Assembly (NCBI RefSeq): GCF_029633965.1
Contig: NZ_CP091277.1
Span: forward strand, 1,857,940-1,921,939
Direction of reading: 5' to 3'
Length of the DNA: 64,000 bases
DNA from: Methanogenium sp. S4BF
GTDB lineage: Archaea; Halobacteriota; Methanomicrobia; Methanomicrobiales; Methanomicrobiaceae
Each line of letters opens with the position of its first letter. Position 1 is the stretch's first letter. The position numbers were made by a program, and so were the translations under genes. Shown here in pieces: positions 2-13,577 of the stretch. The notes beneath the pieces were generated by a model, which saw only the letters and a list, made by a program, of their open reading frames with translations, did not search any database and was not told the DNA's origin.

Positions 2-1513
2 TACGAAGAGGCCCTGGTCGCAGCAGAATCACAGTTGGGGCAGCTCCACCCGGCACGGGTGGCAGGAGAGGAAATTCATGCACGGGAGACGTTCACCGTC
101 TGGTCACCCATTGAGGCGACGCTGAAGATTGGCGATTTTCAGCAGTGCGGGAAAAAAGAGACGGAGGCTGCTATACAGGCAGCGGCAGAGACCTGGGATG
201 ACTGGTCACAGACACCGTGGGAGGTTCGCACTGCCTGCATCGGGGCTGCCGCAGAACGCCTGGAAGCGGAGTATTTCCACCTGGCAGCACTCATTACCCT
301 GGAATGCGCAAAGACGAGAAACGAGGCGCTGGCCGAGGTCGGTGAGGCGGTGGCACTGCTGCGCTACCATACCGATGTCATCCGGGACAATGACGGATTC
401 CGACGGTCAATGCCCGCGGACACAAAGACGGACCGCTATGAGAGCGTTTTGCGCCCCTACGGGGCATGGGCGGTCATCTCACCCTTCAACTTTCCGCTGG
501 TCCTGGGGGCGGGAGCGGCAGCAGCGGCTCTTATCACCGGCAATACAGCCATCATGAAACCGGCCTCTGCCGCACCCCTTTCCATGCTCACTTTCTGCCG
601 GATTCTTGAAGAGGCGGGCGTACCTGCCGGGGCGGCAAACTGCATCACCGGGAGCGGACCGGCCTTCGGAAAGGCAGTCTCACGCTCACCCGCCATTGCA
701 GGACTCACCTTCACCGGATCGCGGGACGCCGGCATGTGGCTGCGCAGGGAGTTCACCACGCACCAGCCGTATCCAAAACCGGTGATCCTTGAACTGGGCA
801 GCAAAAACCCCTGTATCGTCACCGGGCAGGCTGACCTCAGGAAGGCTGCGGAGGGGGTTTGCCGGGGAGCGTTCGGCTTCGGTGGACAGAAATGCAGCGC
901 CACTTCCCGGGTGTATGTTGAACAGCCGGTCTTCCCTGTCTTTGCAGAGATGCTGGCAGAACGGGCAGCACGCTGCACCACCGGCGACCCACGGGAAAAA
1001 GGCGTATTTATGGGCCCTTTAATCAACCGTGCTGCAAAGGAGCGGTTTGATGCGGCGGTTGCGGCCGTTTCTGCGGCCGGGGGCGAGGTCCTCACGGGTG
1101 GCAGGAGTTACTCCGGGAAAGAGACGCACGGCGCATATTTTGCAGATCCCACCATTGTAACCGGTATTTCACACGACCACCCGGTGATGAGGGACGAACT
1201 CTTTGTTCCGCTGGTGGCGCTGGCTACGTTCACCGGAATGGATGAGGCCCTCAGACTCGCCAACGACACGGAGTATGGCCTGACCGCGGGCATATTCTCA
1301 GAAGACCCGGCAGAAGTGGAGGAGTTCTTCTCCCACATACGGTTCGGAGTCTGTTATGCCAACCGGAAAGAAGGGGCAACCACCGGCGGGTGGCCCGAGT
1401 ATCAGTCATTTGGCGGATGGAAAGGGAGTGGATCAACCGGACGGGGAGTTGGGGGGCCGTATTATCTCCTCTCCTACATGCGGGAACAGGCACAGACGAG
1501 GATCGCCGGGTGA
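2..1513 (+). CDS. L-glutamate gamma-semialdehyde (P5C) dehydrogenase, 5'-truncated by the window
   Basis: Aldehyde dehydrogenase superfamily enzyme that would oxidise glutamate-gamma-semialdehyde (P5C) to glutamate, the second step of proline breakdown. The frame is open from base 2 (YEEALVAAESQLGQLHPARV), so the true start lies upstream; the TTG at 35 is internal. Visible hallmarks are the Rossmann region with NFPLVLGAG and KPAS, the catalytic-glutamate motif LELGSKNP, the catalytic cysteine in FGGQKCSATSR, and the C-terminal NRKEGATTGGWPEYQSFGG stretch typical of P5C-type members. It overlaps the next gene, proline dehydrogenase, by 4 bases (GTGA). That pairing is why I prefer P5C dehydrogenase over other aldehyde dehydrogenases. 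Cytoplasmic. Confidence 0.88.
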   Translation, partial: YEEALVAAESQLGQLHPARVAGEEIHARETFTVWSPIEATLKIGDFQQCGKKETEAAIQAAAETWDDWSQTPWEVRTACIGAAAERLEAEYFHLAALITLECAKTRNEALAEVGEAVALLRYHTDVIRDNDGFRRSMPADTKTDRYESVLRPYGAWAVISPFNFPLVLGAGAAAAALITGNTAIMKPASAAPLSMLTFCRILEEAGVPAGAANCITGSGPAFGKAVSRSPAIAGLTFTGSRDAGMWLRREFTTHQPYPKPVILELGSKNPCIVTGQADLRKAAEGVCRGAFGFGGQKCSATSRVYVEQPVFPVFAEMLAERAARCTTGDPREKGVFMGPLINRAAKERFDAAVAAVSAAGGEVLTGGRSYSGKETHGAYFADPTIVTGISHDHPVMRDELFVPLVALATFTGMDEALRLANDTEYGLTAGIFSEDPAEVEEFFSHIRFGVCYANRKEGATTGGWPEYQSFGGWKGSGSTGRGVGGPYYLLSYMREQAQTRIAG

Positions 1514-2340
1514 TACCAATGATGGAAAGTACGCATAAAGCAATTGGGAGGTGGCATTCCGCGGGCCTTGGAGAGGCGATATCCTGGTGCAGGGCCTGCA
1601 ACGAACGGGGCATTCCCTGTATTATGCATCCCCTGGGTGAATATGCAGAAGACCGCCAGGCAGCCGAGGAGGGCACGCGGGCATACGAGGACTGCATCTC
1701 CGCCATCCACCGCCACGGACTGGACGCATCGGTGGCAATCAAGCCATCCGCCATCGGTGTTACCCTGCAGTCAGAGGCATTCCATGAATACCTCGAACAG
1801 ATTCTCTCCCATGCCATGGCAAAACGCGTCCCCACCGGAATCGATATGGAGGGCACGCCGCTCGTGCACGACACCATCGAAGCCGCCTTACAGGCAGCGG
1901 AACAGGGATACTCCTTCACCCTCACCCTGCAGGCATATCTGAGGCGGACACCGGCGGATATCAGCCGGGCAGCAGACGAAGGGATCTCTGTGCGTCTGGT
2001 GAAAGGGGCGTATCTCGGTGACCTGCACCAGCGTGATGAAATCGTAGCGGCATTCCGGACGCAGGCATATCTTCTTGCCCGCAGGCACCCCCAGTTTGCT
2101 GTCGGGACCCAGGACATGGACCTGATCCGGTGGCTGCAGGACTCCATCCCCGAGGCACGTACACGCATCACCTTCGGATTCCTGAAGGGCCTTGGGACCG
2201 AGACAATGCTCGGAATGGCAAACTCCGGATGGAAAGTGCATGAATACCTGCCCTATGGGAATGACCACGGGTCATATGACCGCCGGCGCGAGATCTATCT
2301 CGCCGCCCTCGCAAGTGCCCGGATACGGCCGCTCGTCTGA
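1510..2340 (+). CDS. Proline dehydrogenase (FAD-dependent)
   Basis: Oxidises L-proline to P5C, which the upstream dehydrogenase would turn into glutamate. The PRODH beta-barrel family is recognised from LQAYLRRTP, RLVKGAY, RITFGFLKG and the C-terminal EYLPYGNDHGSYDRRREI block, where the paired arginines normally bind the proline carboxylate. Length is about 276 residues, normal for a single-domain PRODH. I chose the GTG at 1510: it overlaps the upstream TGA and has GAGGAT seven bases before it. An ATG at 1519 in the same frame is the alternative. Two separate coupled proteins replace the fused PutA of proteobacteria. Electron acceptor is not evident from the sequence. Confidence 0.88.
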   Translation: MIPMMESTHKAIGRWHSAGLGEAISWCRACNERGIPCIMHPLGEYAEDRQAAEEGTRAYEDCISAIHRHGLDASVAIKPSAIGVTLQSEAFHEYLEQILSHAMAKRVPTGIDMEGTPLVHDTIEAALQAAEQGYSFTLTLQAYLRRTPADISRAADEGISVRLVKGAYLGDLHQRDEIVAAFRTQAYLLARRHPQFAVGTQDMDLIRWLQDSIPEARTRITFGFLKGLGTETMLGMANSGWKVHEYLPYGNDHGSYDRRREIYLAALASARIRPLV

Positions 2341-5909: not shown

Positions 5910-7367
5910 TCAGGAGAGAAGAGAGTGATTCTGCGGAATCTTCCAGTTTTCCTGCGGCACCGAAAGGGAGAAGACTGCACCTCCCTCCCCGGTACCGGTC
6001 TCCCGGATAGCAATGCCGGTGACTGAGAGTATCTCCCGGGAAAGATACAGACCATAGCGGGTTTTCATTCCTATCCCCCGTGAGAAGATCTTCTCTTTCA
6101 GGTCGTCCGGGATGCCGGTGCCGTCATCTGCAATATCGATGACAGCAGTGCCGTCCGGTTTTATGCTGCAGGATACGGTGAGGGACGTCACGTCACCACC
6201 GTGCTGCACAGCGTTCGTGAAGAGTTCATGCATCACACGCTCCAGCATCGGGTCGGCATAGACGTACAGGGTGCGGCAGGTGCAGGTGACCGTAAGTGCG
6301 GAGAATGCAGGCAGGGCAGCCATCCGGTCTGTCAGCTCCCCGATATGCTGCCAGGCAGGCGGCTGTGACCCAAGGTCCTCATAGTCACGGGTGAAGACGA
6401 TCTGCCGTTCAATGGCAAGCGCCGCATCATTTATTTTTGAGAGCTGCTCCCATGTATCAGACTCGGGAGAGATTTCGCCTGTCATCTCCATGATGTCATA
6501 GAGCATCCGGATAACTGTCACCTGATTCAGAATGTCATGCCGGGTAACTGACGAGAGCATCGCAATCTTCCTCTGTGCTTCGCGTATCGCCTCATCTTTC
6601 TTCACCCTGTCGGTGACATCCTGGTGGACACCCACAACACGCAGTTCCGGATCCTTTTCCGGACTCCAGAATACCTGCCAGTGCGACCGGATCCAGACCC
6701 AGGTGCCATTCTTATGGTGCAGGCGCATTTTATAGGAGCCGGATGGATTTTTGCCTTTACTCCAGCCGGAGTAGAGGCTGAGATACCCGTCCCGCTCATC
6801 CGGGTGTACAAATTGCATGTACTGCTCTGCCGTGAAGGGCATCAGCTCATCCGCCCGATAGCCGATCATCTTTGCCCAGCGCCCGTCCACTGCCATCTCA
6901 CCGGAACGCAGATTCAGGTCCCAGGCACCAAGGTCAGCACACTGGAGGGCAAGGTTGAGCCGTTCCTCATCATGCCGTGCCGAACGGGGTGGGATCCGTT
7001 TTCCGGAAGCAGGCGTAAGATGGATGCAATACCACTCCTTACCACCCTCTGCCGTACGGGAAACCATGACATCGAGGGCGGGGCCTCCATTCACAAGGCC
7101 GGAAGGAAGAGCAGAACAGGTGACTGTTCCGGCCTTCCGGGTCTGGAGAGAGAGGTCATCCCAGCTGACTGTCCTGACAGGGGAGAGAACCGACATGACC
7201 GGTTTGCGGGACAATTCATCCTGAGATTCACGTCCGAGAATCCGGGCTGCCGCTCTGTTGGCCCAGACGATTTCCCCGCCTGCATCTGCAATGAGCATGG
7301 CATGCGGTGCATTCTCACAGCATCCATGCCAACCGCCCGGAAGCGGCATATCCTTTCGTGCAGACAA
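5910..7367 (-). CDS. PAS-PAS sensor histidine kinase (soluble)
   Basis: Cytoplasmic histidine kinase of 485 residues with no membrane segment. Order: PAS (about 15-80, MLIADAGGEIVWANRAAARILG), PAS_3 with PAC (about 130-250, ending RVVGVHQDVTDR), an archaeal-type H-box (SSVTRHDILNQVTVIRML) and a HATPase domain with N-box MHELFTNAVQHGG and G1 box IADDGTGIPDD. The last glycine-rich box reads GMKTRYGLYLS, while the paralogue at 48674-50776 has GQNTGFGLFLS. The TTG at 7367 is favoured as start: GAGGTGATC, a near-perfect Shine-Dalgarno, lies just upstream; the ATG at 7349 has none. No response regulator is nearby. It is divergent from the Nramp-LytS operon and may be functionally linked to it. Confidence 0.88.
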   Translation of the reverse strand: MSARKDMPLPGGWHGCCENAPHAMLIADAGGEIVWANRAAARILGRESQDELSRKPVMSVLSPVRTVSWDDLSLQTRKAGTVTCSALPSGLVNGGPALDVMVSRTAEGGKEWYCIHLTPASGKRIPPRSARHDEERLNLALQCADLGAWDLNLRSGEMAVDGRWAKMIGYRADELMPFTAEQYMQFVHPDERDGYLSLYSGWSKGKNPSGSYKMRLHHKNGTWVWIRSHWQVFWSPEKDPELRVVGVHQDVTDRVKKDEAIREAQRKIAMLSSVTRHDILNQVTVIRMLYDIMEMTGEISPESDTWEQLSKINDAALAIERQIVFTRDYEDLGSQPPAWQHIGELTDRMAALPAFSALTVTCTCRTLYVYADPMLERVMHELFTNAVQHGGDVTSLTVSCSIKPDGTAVIDIADDGTGIPDDLKEKIFSRGIGMKTRYGLYLSREILSVTGIAIRETGTGEGGAVFSLSVPQENWKIPQNHSLLS

Positions 7368-7567
7368 ACGTGATCACCTCTCTTTAGAGCAGGCAGGCAC
7401 AGATGAACTCCCAAAATGAGGACTCAACGGACCTGCATACACAATAATCAATACTATGCTGACAGACTAAAAAAGGATCTTCATCCTGCCACCGCCCCAT
7501 AGTGGTTTCCACACACTTAAGTACCCGGTGTAAAAGAAATTACTCACGATTACAAAGAGAAACAGCG
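7368..7567. promoter_or_regulatory. Divergent promoter region between the kinase and the Nramp-LytS operon
   Basis: Two hundred bases separate the kinase start from the ATG of the fusion gene and hold no ORF worth calling. On the minus strand the strong Shine-Dalgarno of the kinase occupies 7372-7380. On the plus strand, ACTTAAGTA near 7514-7522 is a plausible TATA element about 50 bases before ATG 7568. The intergenic centre (7440-7480) is AT-rich. Shared control of both transcription units is possible but not shown by any clear operator. Confidence 0.4.
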
Positions 7568-9490
7568 ATGCCCGGAAATTACCTTCACACAATAAAAAAG
7601 CATCTTCCCGATTACTTCCGGTTTCTCGGGCCCGGACTTCTGCTGGCAGTCGCGGCCGCAGGCGAGAGCGGCATCGCAGAAGCAGTGGAGATAGGTGCCC
7701 ATTTCAGCTACGCGCTCATCTGGGCCATCGCTATTACCCTCGTCTATAAATTTGCATTCGTAAACGGTATCGCCCGGTACACGATGATCACCGGGAAGAC
7801 GATCTTTGAAGGAATCCTCTCCATTCCCGGCCCGAAGAACTGGGGGGGCATACTTGTGATGGTCATCTATCTCCTCGAGATGTTCGCCTTTGGGGGCATG
7901 CTGATTTTAGGCGCCATCTTCATGGATTACCTTGTGCCGGGCATCAACTCGATTGAGATGATCATCTTCATCTCTCTTTCAGCCATCCTCATCCTGCTCT
8001 GGAAAGAGTCCTATGAACAGCTGGAGCACACCATAATTCTGATTGCTCTTCTGCTCTTCCTCGGCATCGCCTTCTCCCTCACGCAGTTCCCCATCTCCTT
8101 AACAGCAATGCTGCCGGGAATGGTTCCGAATATCCCGCCCAAATCCCTGCTCTCGATCATGGCCCTCATGGGCGCGGTCGGTTCGTCCCTGAATCTCCTC
8201 TTATACTCTATATGGCTCAAAGAAAAGACCGGTGATGAAAAGGGGCCGGGATTCTACCGGAAGGCTATCGTGGGAGTCAATCTTGACCTCATCATCGCCT
8301 TCCTCTTTGTGGGCATCATCACCATACTCTTCATGTCCCTTGGCGTCACCGGATTTTCCATCTCCTATCTGGCCCATGGCGAGACCTTGAGCGTCGATGC
8401 ACTCTTCTCCCAGGTGCTCTATGTTATCGCCTCCATCCCGTACGGCCCCCAGATCTTCCTTGCGACAGGGTATCTGATCATGTTCGGTGCGGTGCTGACC
8501 GGGATGGACGGCCGGGCACGGGCCATCTCCGGGATTCTGCACACCGGATATGCAGTAAAATGGGGAGAGAAGACCACCTTCCGCCTCATTCTCCTACTCT
8601 TCACTGCCATCATCGTGAGTGGTGTCATCATCGGAGAGCCAATGGCACTGGTCCACGGGGTCTCGGCCATTGCGTCCGTCTTCTTTGCGGTGATGGGGTT
8701 CATTCTCATCTGGCTCAATATGGAGATCAGGGAGCCTGAGAGGCCAAACCGTCTCTGGACCGCCGTCATGACCATCGGCAGTCTCATCTTTCTTTTAATG
8801 GCCCTCTTTATGGAAGAGGGCATCATCATGTTCGGCCTGCCGCTTGCAGAACGCATGATCGTCGTCGCCTTTGTGATCTTTGTCTTCGCAGGCACCACCC
8901 TCTTCCGGGATGTCATCCAAGGGCATCCTACCTGGATCGACCGTTTATGGACAGTCCTCATCTTCGGGGCGCTCTCCATCTACGGCACCTTCCGCGGGAT
9001 TGTGTATGAGGGTATCATCATCAACTTCCGTGACCTCGGCCCGATTCTCGCAGGCATCGTAGGAGGCCCCGTTATCGGGGCATGTGCGGGTATTATCGGT
9101 GCCGTATACCGCTACCAGATCCCCGGCATGGAGAAGACCGCCCTTGCCTGTGCGGTGGCAACCATTGTGGCAGGCATTGTGGCGGGATGTTTCGCACGAA
9201 TGTTCCGTGGGGACATCACCTATCTCCGCGGATTCATCCTCGTCGCCCTTGTCGAAGTGATACACTTCTTCATCTTTGTGCCACTCTTCTCAGACATCGC
9301 CACCTTCGCTGAATTCCTGACAATCGTCCGGGTCACCCTGCTTCCGATGGTCTTTGCCATGACCCTCGGAATAATGCTCTTCATCTATATCGTCCGGATG
9401 AAAGGGTATTCCCTTGCCACCCGGTTTGAGGGGAATACCAGCGAAAAAGATGAGAATAAACCGGCACCCGACCGGGAGGGAGAACGATGA
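7568..9490 (+). CDS. Nramp-like transporter domain fused to a LytS-type 5TM domain
   Basis: Membrane protein of about 640 residues with two parts. Residues about 15-400 resemble the Nramp family (start FRFLGPGLLLAVAAAG, internal MALMGAVGSSLNLLLYS). The metal-binding motifs of true Nramps are absent: DPGN of TM1 is replaced by GESG, and the TM6 Met-Pro-His region reads GSSLNLLLY. Residues about 430-610 form a 5TMR-LYT domain, seen in FRDLGPILAGIVGGPVIGA and TALACAVATIVAGIVAG, the sensor module normally found in LytS-type kinases and GGDEF proteins. No kinase or other output follows; the protein ends in a charged tail. ATG 7568 is chosen over 7502 because it starts just before the first conserved segment. 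The stop overlaps the next start (ATGA). The transported or sensed molecule is unknown. Confidence 0.82.
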   Translation: MPGNYLHTIKKHLPDYFRFLGPGLLLAVAAAGESGIAEAVEIGAHFSYALIWAIAITLVYKFAFVNGIARYTMITGKTIFEGILSIPGPKNWGGILVMVIYLLEMFAFGGMLILGAIFMDYLVPGINSIEMIIFISLSAILILLWKESYEQLEHTIILIALLLFLGIAFSLTQFPISLTAMLPGMVPNIPPKSLLSIMALMGAVGSSLNLLLYSIWLKEKTGDEKGPGFYRKAIVGVNLDLIIAFLFVGIITILFMSLGVTGFSISYLAHGETLSVDALFSQVLYVIASIPYGPQIFLATGYLIMFGAVLTGMDGRARAISGILHTGYAVKWGEKTTFRLILLLFTAIIVSGVIIGEPMALVHGVSAIASVFFAVMGFILIWLNMEIREPERPNRLWTAVMTIGSLIFLLMALFMEEGIIMFGLPLAERMIVVAFVIFVFAGTTLFRDVIQGHPTWIDRLWTVLIFGALSIYGTFRGIVYEGIIINFRDLGPILAGIVGGPVIGACAGIIGAVYRYQIPGMEKTALACAVATIVAGIVAGCFARMFRGDITYLRGFILVALVEVIHFFIFVPLFSDIATFAEFLTIVRVTLLPMVFAMTLGIMLFIYIVRMKGYSLATRFEGNTSEKDENKPAPDREGER

Positions 9491-10665
9491 ACAAAACACT
9501 CCTTGAATATCTGCCCTACATCTTCGCAGGTTTCATCTGTTGTTTCCTCATCTTCAGTGCGGTATTGCATACGCCTGATTACGGGGAGAATGAAACGATC
9601 AACATCGGCATCATGGTGCCGCTCTCGGGAGGCCTTGCGGAGTATGGCATGGACGTGAAGACCGGTGTGGACATGGCAGTCGATGAGATAAACAGCAAAG
9701 GCGGCATCGGCGGCAAAAAGGTAAGGGCAGTCTACAAGAACACCTGGGGATACCCGAACCGGGCGGCATCCCTTATGGAGGAATGCGCAGAGGAAGGGAT
9801 ACCCGTGGTCATCGGTGACATCACAAGCTCCGGAGCCCTGGCATGTGCAGAGGTCGCAGAAGAGAAACATATCGTCCTCATCTCGCAGGCGGCAACCACA
9901 CCAGTCCTGAGTGAATACGGACCATATGTTTTCCGCACCATCTCATCAGATATCTATCAGGGGAGGGGCATGGCCCGGATCTTCCGGATATTCCACCCAG
10001 AGGCGAATAATGTTACTGTCCTCTATATCGACAATGCCTACGGCTCCGGCCTCGCGGAGTCATTTGTGACAGCACAGGATGACGGAGGATTTCACGTGCA
10101 GCAGGTGATCCCCTTTGAGGAGGGGCAACGCACATTTTCCAATGAAATCGCAGCCATCCATGCCTCTGAAACAAATGGCATTGCCCTCATCGCACATGTC
10201 ACAGAGGCGGAGAATATCCTGAAAGAGGCCGAGGCACAGGGTCTTGACGTTGCCTGGGTCGGGTCAGACGGCATTGTGACCACCGAACTCTATTCCCATG
10301 TCGGCTCCTATGCAGAAGGGTTCATCGCCACAATGCAGTCAAGCGAAGTCCGTGACCCGACATTCATCCATGAATACCAGGTGCGGGCCAAAGACAGCAC
10401 AGTCAACTGGATGGCCCCCTATTCCTACGATACCGTGATGATTGTGGCAGAGGCCATCCGGTATGGCGGATACTCGGCAGACGGCATCCGCGATGCATTC
10501 GGGAAGATCCGGCACCTGGGTGTCTGCGGCCCGAAGGTGTTCGAGGAGAACGGCGATATACCCCCCGCCTTTGATGTGATGCGGATAGAAAACGGTGTCT
10601 GGAAACGCGTCTCCTGGAAGGAGATCACACAAACCGGAACCACGAGTGAAGCCCCGGCACACTGA
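9487..10665 (+). CDS. Membrane-anchored extracellular ligand-binding protein (Peripla_BP_6 type)
   Basis: A 392-residue type I periplasmic-binding fold of the branched-chain amino acid receptor family (PF13458). A single N-terminal hydrophobic segment (YIFAGFICCFLIFSAVL) would hold it in the membrane with the ligand domain outside; there is no lipobox. The fold begins NIGIMVPLSGGLAEYG and contains VIGDITSSGALACAEVAEE, VTVLYIDNAYGSGLAESF and the late SYDTVMIVAEAIR region, all typical. No ABC permease or ATPase gene is next to it. It overlaps the Nramp-LytS fusion by ATGA, so the two are made together and probably act together as a receptor or importer. Confidence 0.87.
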   Translation: MNKTLLEYLPYIFAGFICCFLIFSAVLHTPDYGENETINIGIMVPLSGGLAEYGMDVKTGVDMAVDEINSKGGIGGKKVRAVYKNTWGYPNRAASLMEECAEEGIPVVIGDITSSGALACAEVAEEKHIVLISQAATTPVLSEYGPYVFRTISSDIYQGRGMARIFRIFHPEANNVTVLYIDNAYGSGLAESFVTAQDDGGFHVQQVIPFEEGQRTFSNEIAAIHASETNGIALIAHVTEAENILKEAEAQGLDVAWVGSDGIVTTELYSHVGSYAEGFIATMQSSEVRDPTFIHEYQVRAKDSTVNWMAPYSYDTVMIVAEAIRYGGYSADGIRDAFGKIRHLGVCGPKVFEENGDIPPAFDVMRIENGVWKRVSWKEITQTGTTSEAPAH

Positions 10666-11848: not shown

Positions 11849-13577
11849 TTAAGCTCACTTTCCGCATGTCTCCTTTCAACAATAGTATTTTTCGTACTCG
11901 CCACCCAATAACCGTAATATCTTTTTCAATTCATCATTCAGATTCGTAATCCGCTTTATTCTCCGTTCTCCCTCGACGAATGAAAACTCCCTCACCCTCC
12001 TAAACAGGAAAAAGGTCCACTTCATTGTCGGTCTCTGTGTCTGCTTCTTTGTCTGGCTGGTGACGGTTTCACCAGACTGTCCCAGCTCCCTTCTCAGCCG
12101 GAATTCAGTCATCGAGTAGATGAACAGGCACAGTACCATGATCATCGCTAATGCCTGAATACGCGATGGTTTCTTTAAAAAGACCTCTGCAACGCGGAAT
12201 GATTTGTCCTTCAGGAATCGAAATCCCCGTTCAACGGATCCCTGTCCTTTGTAGTTTGCCAGCAACTCATCCGCAGACATCCCTGTATCATTCGTTGCCA
12301 GAACGAAACGCCCGAGATTTTGGCGTTCCTGCTCGACTACGCTGTCATCGTATTCAATATCTGCAGTAATCTTATACGAATGAACCAATGGTTCACCGGC
12401 CTTCGGCCGGCCCCGTTTCTTCTCTTCTTTCCGTTGAACCGTAAGAATTTCGAGTTCGCTGAACAGATACTCTGGATGTTTGTCTAACCACTTCTCTGCT
12501 GCAATACGTGCGTCCGGTTCACAAGCGAATTCCTGTGCACAGACTTTTCGGAGAGATGTTTTCGCTCTCTCCAGATCTTTTACCAGATTCTTTTGAAACG
12601 TTTTATTCTGCTGTTCATGCATTGGTTCAGAATGATACATGACCCATTTCTGTCTGATCCCGGCATATTCACTGAAATATTCACTATAGGAATAGCGTTC
12701 ATCAACGCACGGTGTAAACTGAAAATCTGATTTTATCAGTTCTTTTACGTCTTTGATGGTAACCGGCACACGGCTGATCCAGAACATATGCCGGCCTAAG
12801 CTCTGAAGATTCTTTTCAGTATAAAATGCAGCGTCAGCCACATGGTAGACTTTCTCTTCTGATTTCAGATTGCTCTGGAGTTTTTCAATAATGATTCTGA
12901 GCGTCTCTTTATCTGATTCATTCCCGGAAAAGGTCTGAAGAAAAAGGGGCACCCCGTGCTGATTTGATGCCATGCCCAGGACAAACCGTTTGAGATCCCA
13001 GCGGCCATCCTTCGGGTGGCCATAGGTAATCTGGATTTCTTCAGTGTTGAAATCGGATTCATATTCACCGGTGACACTGAAGTTAGTGGTATCAACGTGA
13101 ACGCAATGCGAGCCAAATTCTGTCCGAAGAAGGCAGTTTGCAACGATTTCATTGAATAATTCAGTTGGACCATACTCTGCAATGGCATCCAGTGTTCTCC
13201 CGAGCACATCGTCGTTTATCTGTTCCCGGGTAATTCCCTCCCCAAGAAGCCGTTCAACGGCGATATCGTCAAAGAATTCCGGAAACAGATAAAGGCGGCG
13301 TTCGATGAATCCCAGACCATTGAGTACCATAGCTTTCACGACCTGAGAATGGGTGAGATTATGGTTCCGGGTCTTTGGTATTGCGGTATCGATTATATTC
13401 GCGATCCCAAGAGAATCGTAGGCTCCGGCAACAATGCCGAGATGGCCGACGGAAAGGATTGATTCGTCATCAAATCCGTCAATGAGGGGCATATTGTAGA
13501 TATTTGCTTATACGTACATAGATCTTGCGGTGGATAATTGTGTTAATTGTGGATTTTAGTGCGGATGCTGGGGTTAA
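11849..13577 (-). mobile_element. IS1634-family insertion sequence
   Basis: Contains one transposase gene filling most of its length. Candidate terminal inverted repeats are 11849-11866 (TTAAGCTCACTTTCCGCA) and 13560-13577, whose reverse complement is TTAACCCCAGCATCCGCA; they match at 13 of 18 positions. The element would be about 1.73 kb, in the family's range. Adjacent five-base flanks are GAGAG and GACAC, not an exact target duplication. The transposase is certain; the exact ends are inferred by eye. Confidence 0.6.
11876..13492 (-). CDS. IS1634-family transposase
   Basis: Full-length 538-residue DDE transposase, apparently intact. The N-terminal helical region (MPLIDGFDDESILSVGHLG) is followed by the catalytic core: first Asp in HCVHVDTTNFSVTGEY, second in YHVADAAFYTEKNLQSL, a long insertion with KKRGRPKAGEP, and the glutamate in YKGQGSVERGFRFLKD. 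The C-terminal helix pair (RIQALAMIMVLCLFIYSMTE) is typical of the family. ATG 13492 is the only sensible start. The reading frame has no stops or frameshifts, so the element may still be mobile. Confidence 0.93.
   Translation of the reverse strand: MPLIDGFDDESILSVGHLGIVAGAYDSLGIANIIDTAIPKTRNHNLTHSQVVKAMVLNGLGFIERRLYLFPEFFDDIAVERLLGEGITREQINDDVLGRTLDAIAEYGPTELFNEIVANCLLRTEFGSHCVHVDTTNFSVTGEYESDFNTEEIQITYGHPKDGRWDLKRFVLGMASNQHGVPLFLQTFSGNESDKETLRIIIEKLQSNLKSEEKVYHVADAAFYTEKNLQSLGRHMFWISRVPVTIKDVKELIKSDFQFTPCVDERYSYSEYFSEYAGIRQKWVMYHSEPMHEQQNKTFQKNLVKDLERAKTSLRKVCAQEFACEPDARIAAEKWLDKHPEYLFSELEILTVQRKEEKKRGRPKAGEPLVHSYKITADIEYDDSVVEQERQNLGRFVLATNDTGMSADELLANYKGQGSVERGFRFLKDKSFRVAEVFLKKPSRIQALAMIMVLCLFIYSMTEFRLRRELGQSGETVTSQTKKQTQRPTMKWTFFLFRRVREFSFVEGERRIKRITNLNDELKKILRLLGGEYEKYYC

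Follow-up and report, generated by a model that had tools for sequence, protein, structure and literature searches.

Classically, a binding protein works with an ABC importer or with one of a few families of secondary transporters (TRAP, TAXI, and TTT). The adjacent genes described here, FUS and REC, resemble the TRAP, TAXI, and TTT systems in plan, where an extracytoplasmic binding protein, sometimes membrane-anchored, serves a secondary transporter; the anchored form is known from TAXI transporters (Roden 2023, as cited in PMC11574862). However, the membrane subunits of those systems belong to families unrelated to FUS, which combines a LeuT/Nramp fold with a sensor module: its only Pfam matches are Nramp and 5TMR_LYT, with no TRAP (DctQM-type) or TTT (TctAB-type) subunit among them. 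An organic substrate has a precedent in the Nramp family, since growth of Corynebacterium on 5-oxoproline requires PxpT (PMC13274462), although YcsG, the B. subtilis counterpart of PxpT, is also tied to Mn2+ import (PMC10448178). PxpT and YcsG are like FUS in being Nramp-family secondary transporters proposed for an organic solute, but they differ, by description rather than by alignment, in having neither a binding protein nor a LytS module. The plant signalling protein EIN2, which has no known transport activity, shares the Nramp-like domain, but it carries a soluble C-terminal domain in place of the LytS module and lacks a binding-protein partner. The BtsS/LytS pyruvate sensor kinases share with FUS a 7TM module, an NxR motif, and equivalents of R72, R99, and C110, whereas FUS lacks a kinase domain, places the module behind a transporter, and has Ala for S113. 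Finally, REC has the Peripla_BP_6 fold and the amino-acid-site residues of the LIV/HAAT ABC importers but is membrane-anchored and is encoded in a genome without a LIV permease.

The Nramp-5TMR fusion itself is already known. It was published in 2024 (Commun Biol, PMC11109136) as an archaeal architecture with the same domain order as FUS and a C-terminal 5TMR, and was read as metal transport plus sensing; the available excerpts of that paper contain no mention of a receptor gene, of the loss of metal ligands, or of a split into clades. No description of the FUS-REC partnership was found in a full-text search of open-access literature.

The window analysed is a 64,000-nt stretch of the Methanogenium sp. 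S4BF genome. The preliminary description had placed three genes in it, all of which are real, lie where it put them, and have the domains claimed, as confirmed by Pfam. FUS (7568 to 9490, + strand) was characterised by Pfam, AF2 modelling, Foldseek, and a profile match to BtsS as a Nramp/LeuT-fold half (residues ~19 to 385, with the Pfam Nramp domain at 36 to 383, E 4e-14) joined to a LytS/BtsS-type 7TM sensory module (H0 at residues ~417 to 441 and the 5TM-5TMR_LYT domain at 444 to 610, E 3e-34). Neither Pfam nor the AF2 model gave an output or kinase domain beyond residue 610, and the protein is thus the output-less fusion originally claimed. In the AF2 model (38 sequences, pLDDT 82, pTM 0.76), the Nramp half matched Nramp structures in Foldseek with TM-scores of 0.80 to 0.85, normalised to the target; APC-type amino-acid transporters were weaker matches.

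The Nramp half has lost its metal site. In 51 of 51 readable fusions (52 were aligned, one row being unreadable at TM1), the Nramp metal ligands D56 and N59 of the DPGN motif are both replaced by G, and M230 of the MPH motif by S, A, or G. The corresponding residues in FUS are G32, G35, and S206, and the replacement site reads GESG in TM1 and GSxLN in TM6; the former presumably resembles the TM1 motifs through which amino-acid APC transporters bind carboxylates. D56, N59, and M230 are the metal ligands of DraNramp and are essential or important there (PMC6398981). With all of these residues replaced, canonical divalent-metal transport by FUS appears unlikely from its sequence.

The "5TMR" part of FUS is a seven-helix LytS/BtsS module, consisting of H0 and a six-helix S-component fold, and its profile match to E. 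coli BtsS is strong (E 6.5e-37). Because 11 helices of the Nramp half precede H0 in the AF2 model, the start of H0 would lie on the outer side, as in BtsS. Pyruvate is bound by BtsS via R72, R99, C110, and S113 (PMC10653868); FUS retains the first three as R488, R515, and C528, and A531 occupies the position of S113. Across 38 fusions, the R72 residue is present in 21, R99 in 33, C110 in 26, and S113 in six, and the R72, R99, and C110 equivalents are lost in the fusions of genus g8. A small carboxylate is a plausible ligand of the FUS sensor module.

REC (9487 to 10665, + strand) is a membrane-anchored, extracellular, LIVBP-like receptor, as determined by Pfam (Peripla_BP_6, E 1e-39), a PDB sequence search, residue conservation, and hydropathy. 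The single N-terminal anchor noted earlier corresponds to the one hydrophobic segment at residues ~4 to 30; in genus g3, the anchor has a lipobox-like LSSGC. The best PDB matches are LIVBP-type amino-acid receptors (E ~1e-47). The LIVBP residues S79, T102, Y150, and E226, which we take to be amino-acid-site positions, align with REC S114, T137, Y185, and D261, and among 32 REC sequences, S114 is kept in 31, T137 in 32, Y185 in 31, and an acidic residue (D or E) at 261 in all 32. This kept site, together with the LIVBP-type relationship, makes an alpha-amino acid or a close analogue the likely ligand class.

A LIV-type ABC partner for REC was considered and rejected. The absence of an ABC permease that had been remarked on at the locus extends past the window: no PF02653 (LivH/LivM-type, BPD_transp_2) permease was found in the whole genome (2.51 Mb, complete, 99.8% completeness), where REC is the sole Peripla_BP_6 protein. 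In a 60-genome panel, PF02653 was above cut-off in none of 21 genomes carrying fusions of the clade to which FUS belongs (clade A, see below) and in 14 of the 39 others (Fisher p=0.001, uncorrected for kinship); in genomes with LIV permeases, the Peripla_BP_6 genes adjoin those permeases instead.

REC is a binding protein genetically tied to a membrane protein with a secondary-transporter fold. The two genes share an ATGA stop/start overlap (9487 to 9490, + strand), noted previously and present in the sequence, which provides for translational coupling; in 17 inspected relatives, the spacing is mostly the same 4-nt overlap (-4 nt) and the genes are never more than 3 nt apart. The survey for fusions began with 60 relatives and was extended to 199 genomes from the order and 392 from the phylum; the architecture proved to be nearly restricted to Methanomicrobiales. 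A tree of 52 fusions divided into clade A (36 rows, support 100/99), which takes in Methanomicrobiaceae, Methanocorpusculum, and a third, more distant lineage, and clade B (16 rows). All 35 clade-A fusions that can be tested have REC as a direct neighbour, usually overlapping: it is full-length in 32, short or cut by a contig end in two (L079 and L116), and frameshifted in one (L038), the remaining row (L004) being untestable at a contig edge. In L038, from a draft M. cariaci genome, REC, HK (the kinase gene described below), and AI-2E are all frameshifted; frameshifts in three genes at once are probably an assembly error rather than gene decay. None of the 16 clade-B fusions, including a paralogue in this genome, has REC beside it.

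Retention at all 35 testable loci means that the adjacency is not due to chance. Even in the distant lineage (L117), where the order is swapped and REC lies upstream of FUS, the two genes remain adjacent. Distances within FUS and REC are correlated (Mantel r=0.93), both tracing the species tree. Other clade-A neighbours, namely radical SAM, ROK, a divergent Bmp-type binding protein, AI-2E, aldo-keto reductase, and DUF3089, vary by lineage, and the constancy of FUS-REC against this changing background strongly supports the two forming one unit. The preliminary description had held that a wide occurrence of the fusion with neither receptor nor kinase nearby would make the unit accidental; receptor-less fusions do occur, but as the separate clade B. 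Among the varying neighbours, a Bmp/PnrA-type binding-protein gene is divergent from and directly upstream of FUS in Methanocorpusculum (L052:3847-4893 and seven similar loci), and no PF02653 permease was found in the tested genomes of this genus. In genera g2, g3, g6, and g8, a convergent ABC-3 metal-type permease lies downstream of REC (L044:5185-6015 and relatives). In the window itself, a DUF4277/DDE transposase of an insertion sequence (11876 to 13492, - strand) lies ~1.2 kb downstream of REC.

These observations suggest a system, not recognised before, in which a receptor drives uptake or sensing. Our main reading, to which we give about an even chance (roughly 0.5), is that FUS-REC is a binding-protein-coupled, metal-site-less Nramp transporter or transceptor for an amino-acid-like solute. 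REC, held by one N-terminal helix, would bind an extracellular solute resembling an alpha-amino acid and, in a physical complex with FUS, hand it over. FUS, which has the LeuT fold and belongs to the Nramp branch, would have exchanged its metal site for the GESG/GSxLN site and would import the solute by secondary transport. Its BtsS-like module may sense a small carboxylate and either gate transport or report occupancy, as a transceptor does; in Methanogenium, the divergent PAS kinase HK may receive the signal. If this is true, binding proteins have a further kind of partner, a LeuT-fold protein that carries its own sensor, and a Nramp-branch protein has been re-purposed from metals to organic solutes. 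The architecture published as a metal transporter-sensor thereby gains a testable role, and methanogens without a LIV system a candidate route for amino-acid uptake or sensing. Rather more tentatively, the pair could represent a new class of binding-protein-dependent secondary transporter or transceptor, in which a LeuT/Nramp carrier with an S-component-like sensor and an anchored LIVBP-type receptor replaces ABC amino-acid uptake in Methanomicrobiales. Counting against the main reading are the clade-B fusions, which suggest that FUS-type proteins can work without REC, the convergent ABC-3 metal permease in g2, g3, g6, and g8, the loss of the R72, R99, and C110 equivalents in g8, the fact that the correlated FUS and REC distances both trace the species tree, and the kinase links described below.

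Proline was considered as a general ligand and rejected. Overlapping genes for a P5C-dehydrogenase-like protein (Aldedh) and proline dehydrogenase, unusual for a hydrogenotrophic methanogen, occupy window positions 35 to 2340 (+ strand), and such a pair lies 4 to 9 kb upstream of FUS in Methanogenium and in the g4 (Methanoculleus-like) genomes G009 and G015. Clade-A genomes of six genera (g2, g3, g5, g6, g8, and g21) have no proline dehydrogenase, and a proline link is therefore lineage-specific at best.

The main rival to the transporter or transceptor reading is a pure receptor complex, in which REC and FUS would detect an amino-acid-like ligand outside the cell, with the Nramp half acting as a non-transporting scaffold and output passing through a separate kinase. 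EIN2 provides a precedent for such a scaffold (PMC7912600), and the LytS module is, after all, a sensor. Kinase links are found at several fusions. The second Nramp-5TMR fusion of this genome, a clade-B protein without REC (G000:C1:2039672-2041483; L183:3595-5547), has its gene immediately after an RR-HisKA_2 kinase gene on the same strand, an arrangement that recurs in Methanogenium clade B and in genome G009 of g4. Upstream of each of the two fusions in the present genome stands a kinase gene; given 33 HATPase_c genes genome-wide, kinase neighbours are not expected to be common by chance, but the independent events are few. In the Methanoregulaceae genus g35, Nramp-5TMR-5TMR proteins continue into a 318-residue domain without a Pfam match (L129:5348-8875 and L130:4391-7891). 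By sequence alone, this domain gave no match to kinases, but its AF2 model (pLDDT 84.5) matched the fold of histidine-kinase DHp-CA cores with a probability of 1.00. Inspection showed the phospho-acceptor histidine to be missing, and the modelled fold identifies the domain as a degenerate histidine-kinase core, or pseudokinase. This pseudokinase and the kinase beside the clade-B fusions favour signalling over transport, and they keep a sensing role for Nramp-5TMR proteins in play. Against a purely signalling function, the LeuT core of FUS is well conserved, FUS has no output domain of its own, and the clade-A pairs outside Methanogenium have no adjacent kinase. We regard the pure receptor complex as possible but the less probable account.

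Homologues of the g35 pseudokinase domain also form the ends of metallo-beta-lactamase-fold proteins (L180 and L181). Divergent from these genes are a 5TMR-SpoIIE phosphatase in L181 and a 5TMR ORF in L180, possibly making partner-switching pairs. In two Methanosarcina-like genomes, Nramp is joined to three tandem 5TMR modules in one frame of 1131 aa (L153:6331-9723, - strand).

The preliminary description went further and combined receptor, fusion, and kinase into one system, the kinase supplying the output that FUS lacks. The kinase, HK (5910 to 7367, - strand), was identified from Pfam and gene neighbourhoods as a divergent PAS-PAS_3-HATPase_c protein. As described, it is soluble, no hydrophobic segment being found by hydropathy, and its TTG start at 7367 is preceded by a good Shine-Dalgarno sequence, GAGAGGTGATCA. 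HK adjoins FUS-REC, divergent from FUS, in all seven Methanogenium genomes, which speaks for a dedicated three-gene sensory unit. However, the AI-2E, aldo-keto reductase, and flavin reductase genes are as well conserved around FUS-REC in this genus as HK is, and alignment of the seven genomes showed only short conserved blocks in the 200-nt HK/FUS intergenic region (7368 to 7567). Moreover, no kinase was found beside the clade-A pairs at the loci examined outside Methanogenium, and HK was consequently rejected as a universal member. The proposed co-occurrence search upheld the receptor throughout testable clade A but confined the divergent kinase to Methanogenium, and the kinase is not supported as a general source of the output. 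A single three-gene unit is improbable; HK is at most a genus-level attachment, a candidate lineage-specific output outside the core.

More improbable still is the reading in line with the 2024 paper, in which FUS carries divalent metals under the control of its 5TMR, REC being incidental or a binder of metal chelates. The Nramp fold, a match of FUS to NCBIfam Nramp_1 above the cut-off, and the ABC-3 metal permease of four genera would suit such a function, but the replacement of D56, N59, and M230 in every readable fusion and the amino-acid site kept in REC do not. Least probable is that REC, which is LIVBP-type by sequence, has its partner in an ABC permease that is distant or has escaped recognition, and adjoins FUS through shared ancestry only, given a genome without PF02653 and an adjacency that has outlasted all other neighbours and a swap in gene order. 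Peripla_BP_6 domains also occur in large extracellular proteins of related methanogens (L188 to L191), where they are combined with Bmp, a second Peripla_BP_6, or Peptidase_C13.
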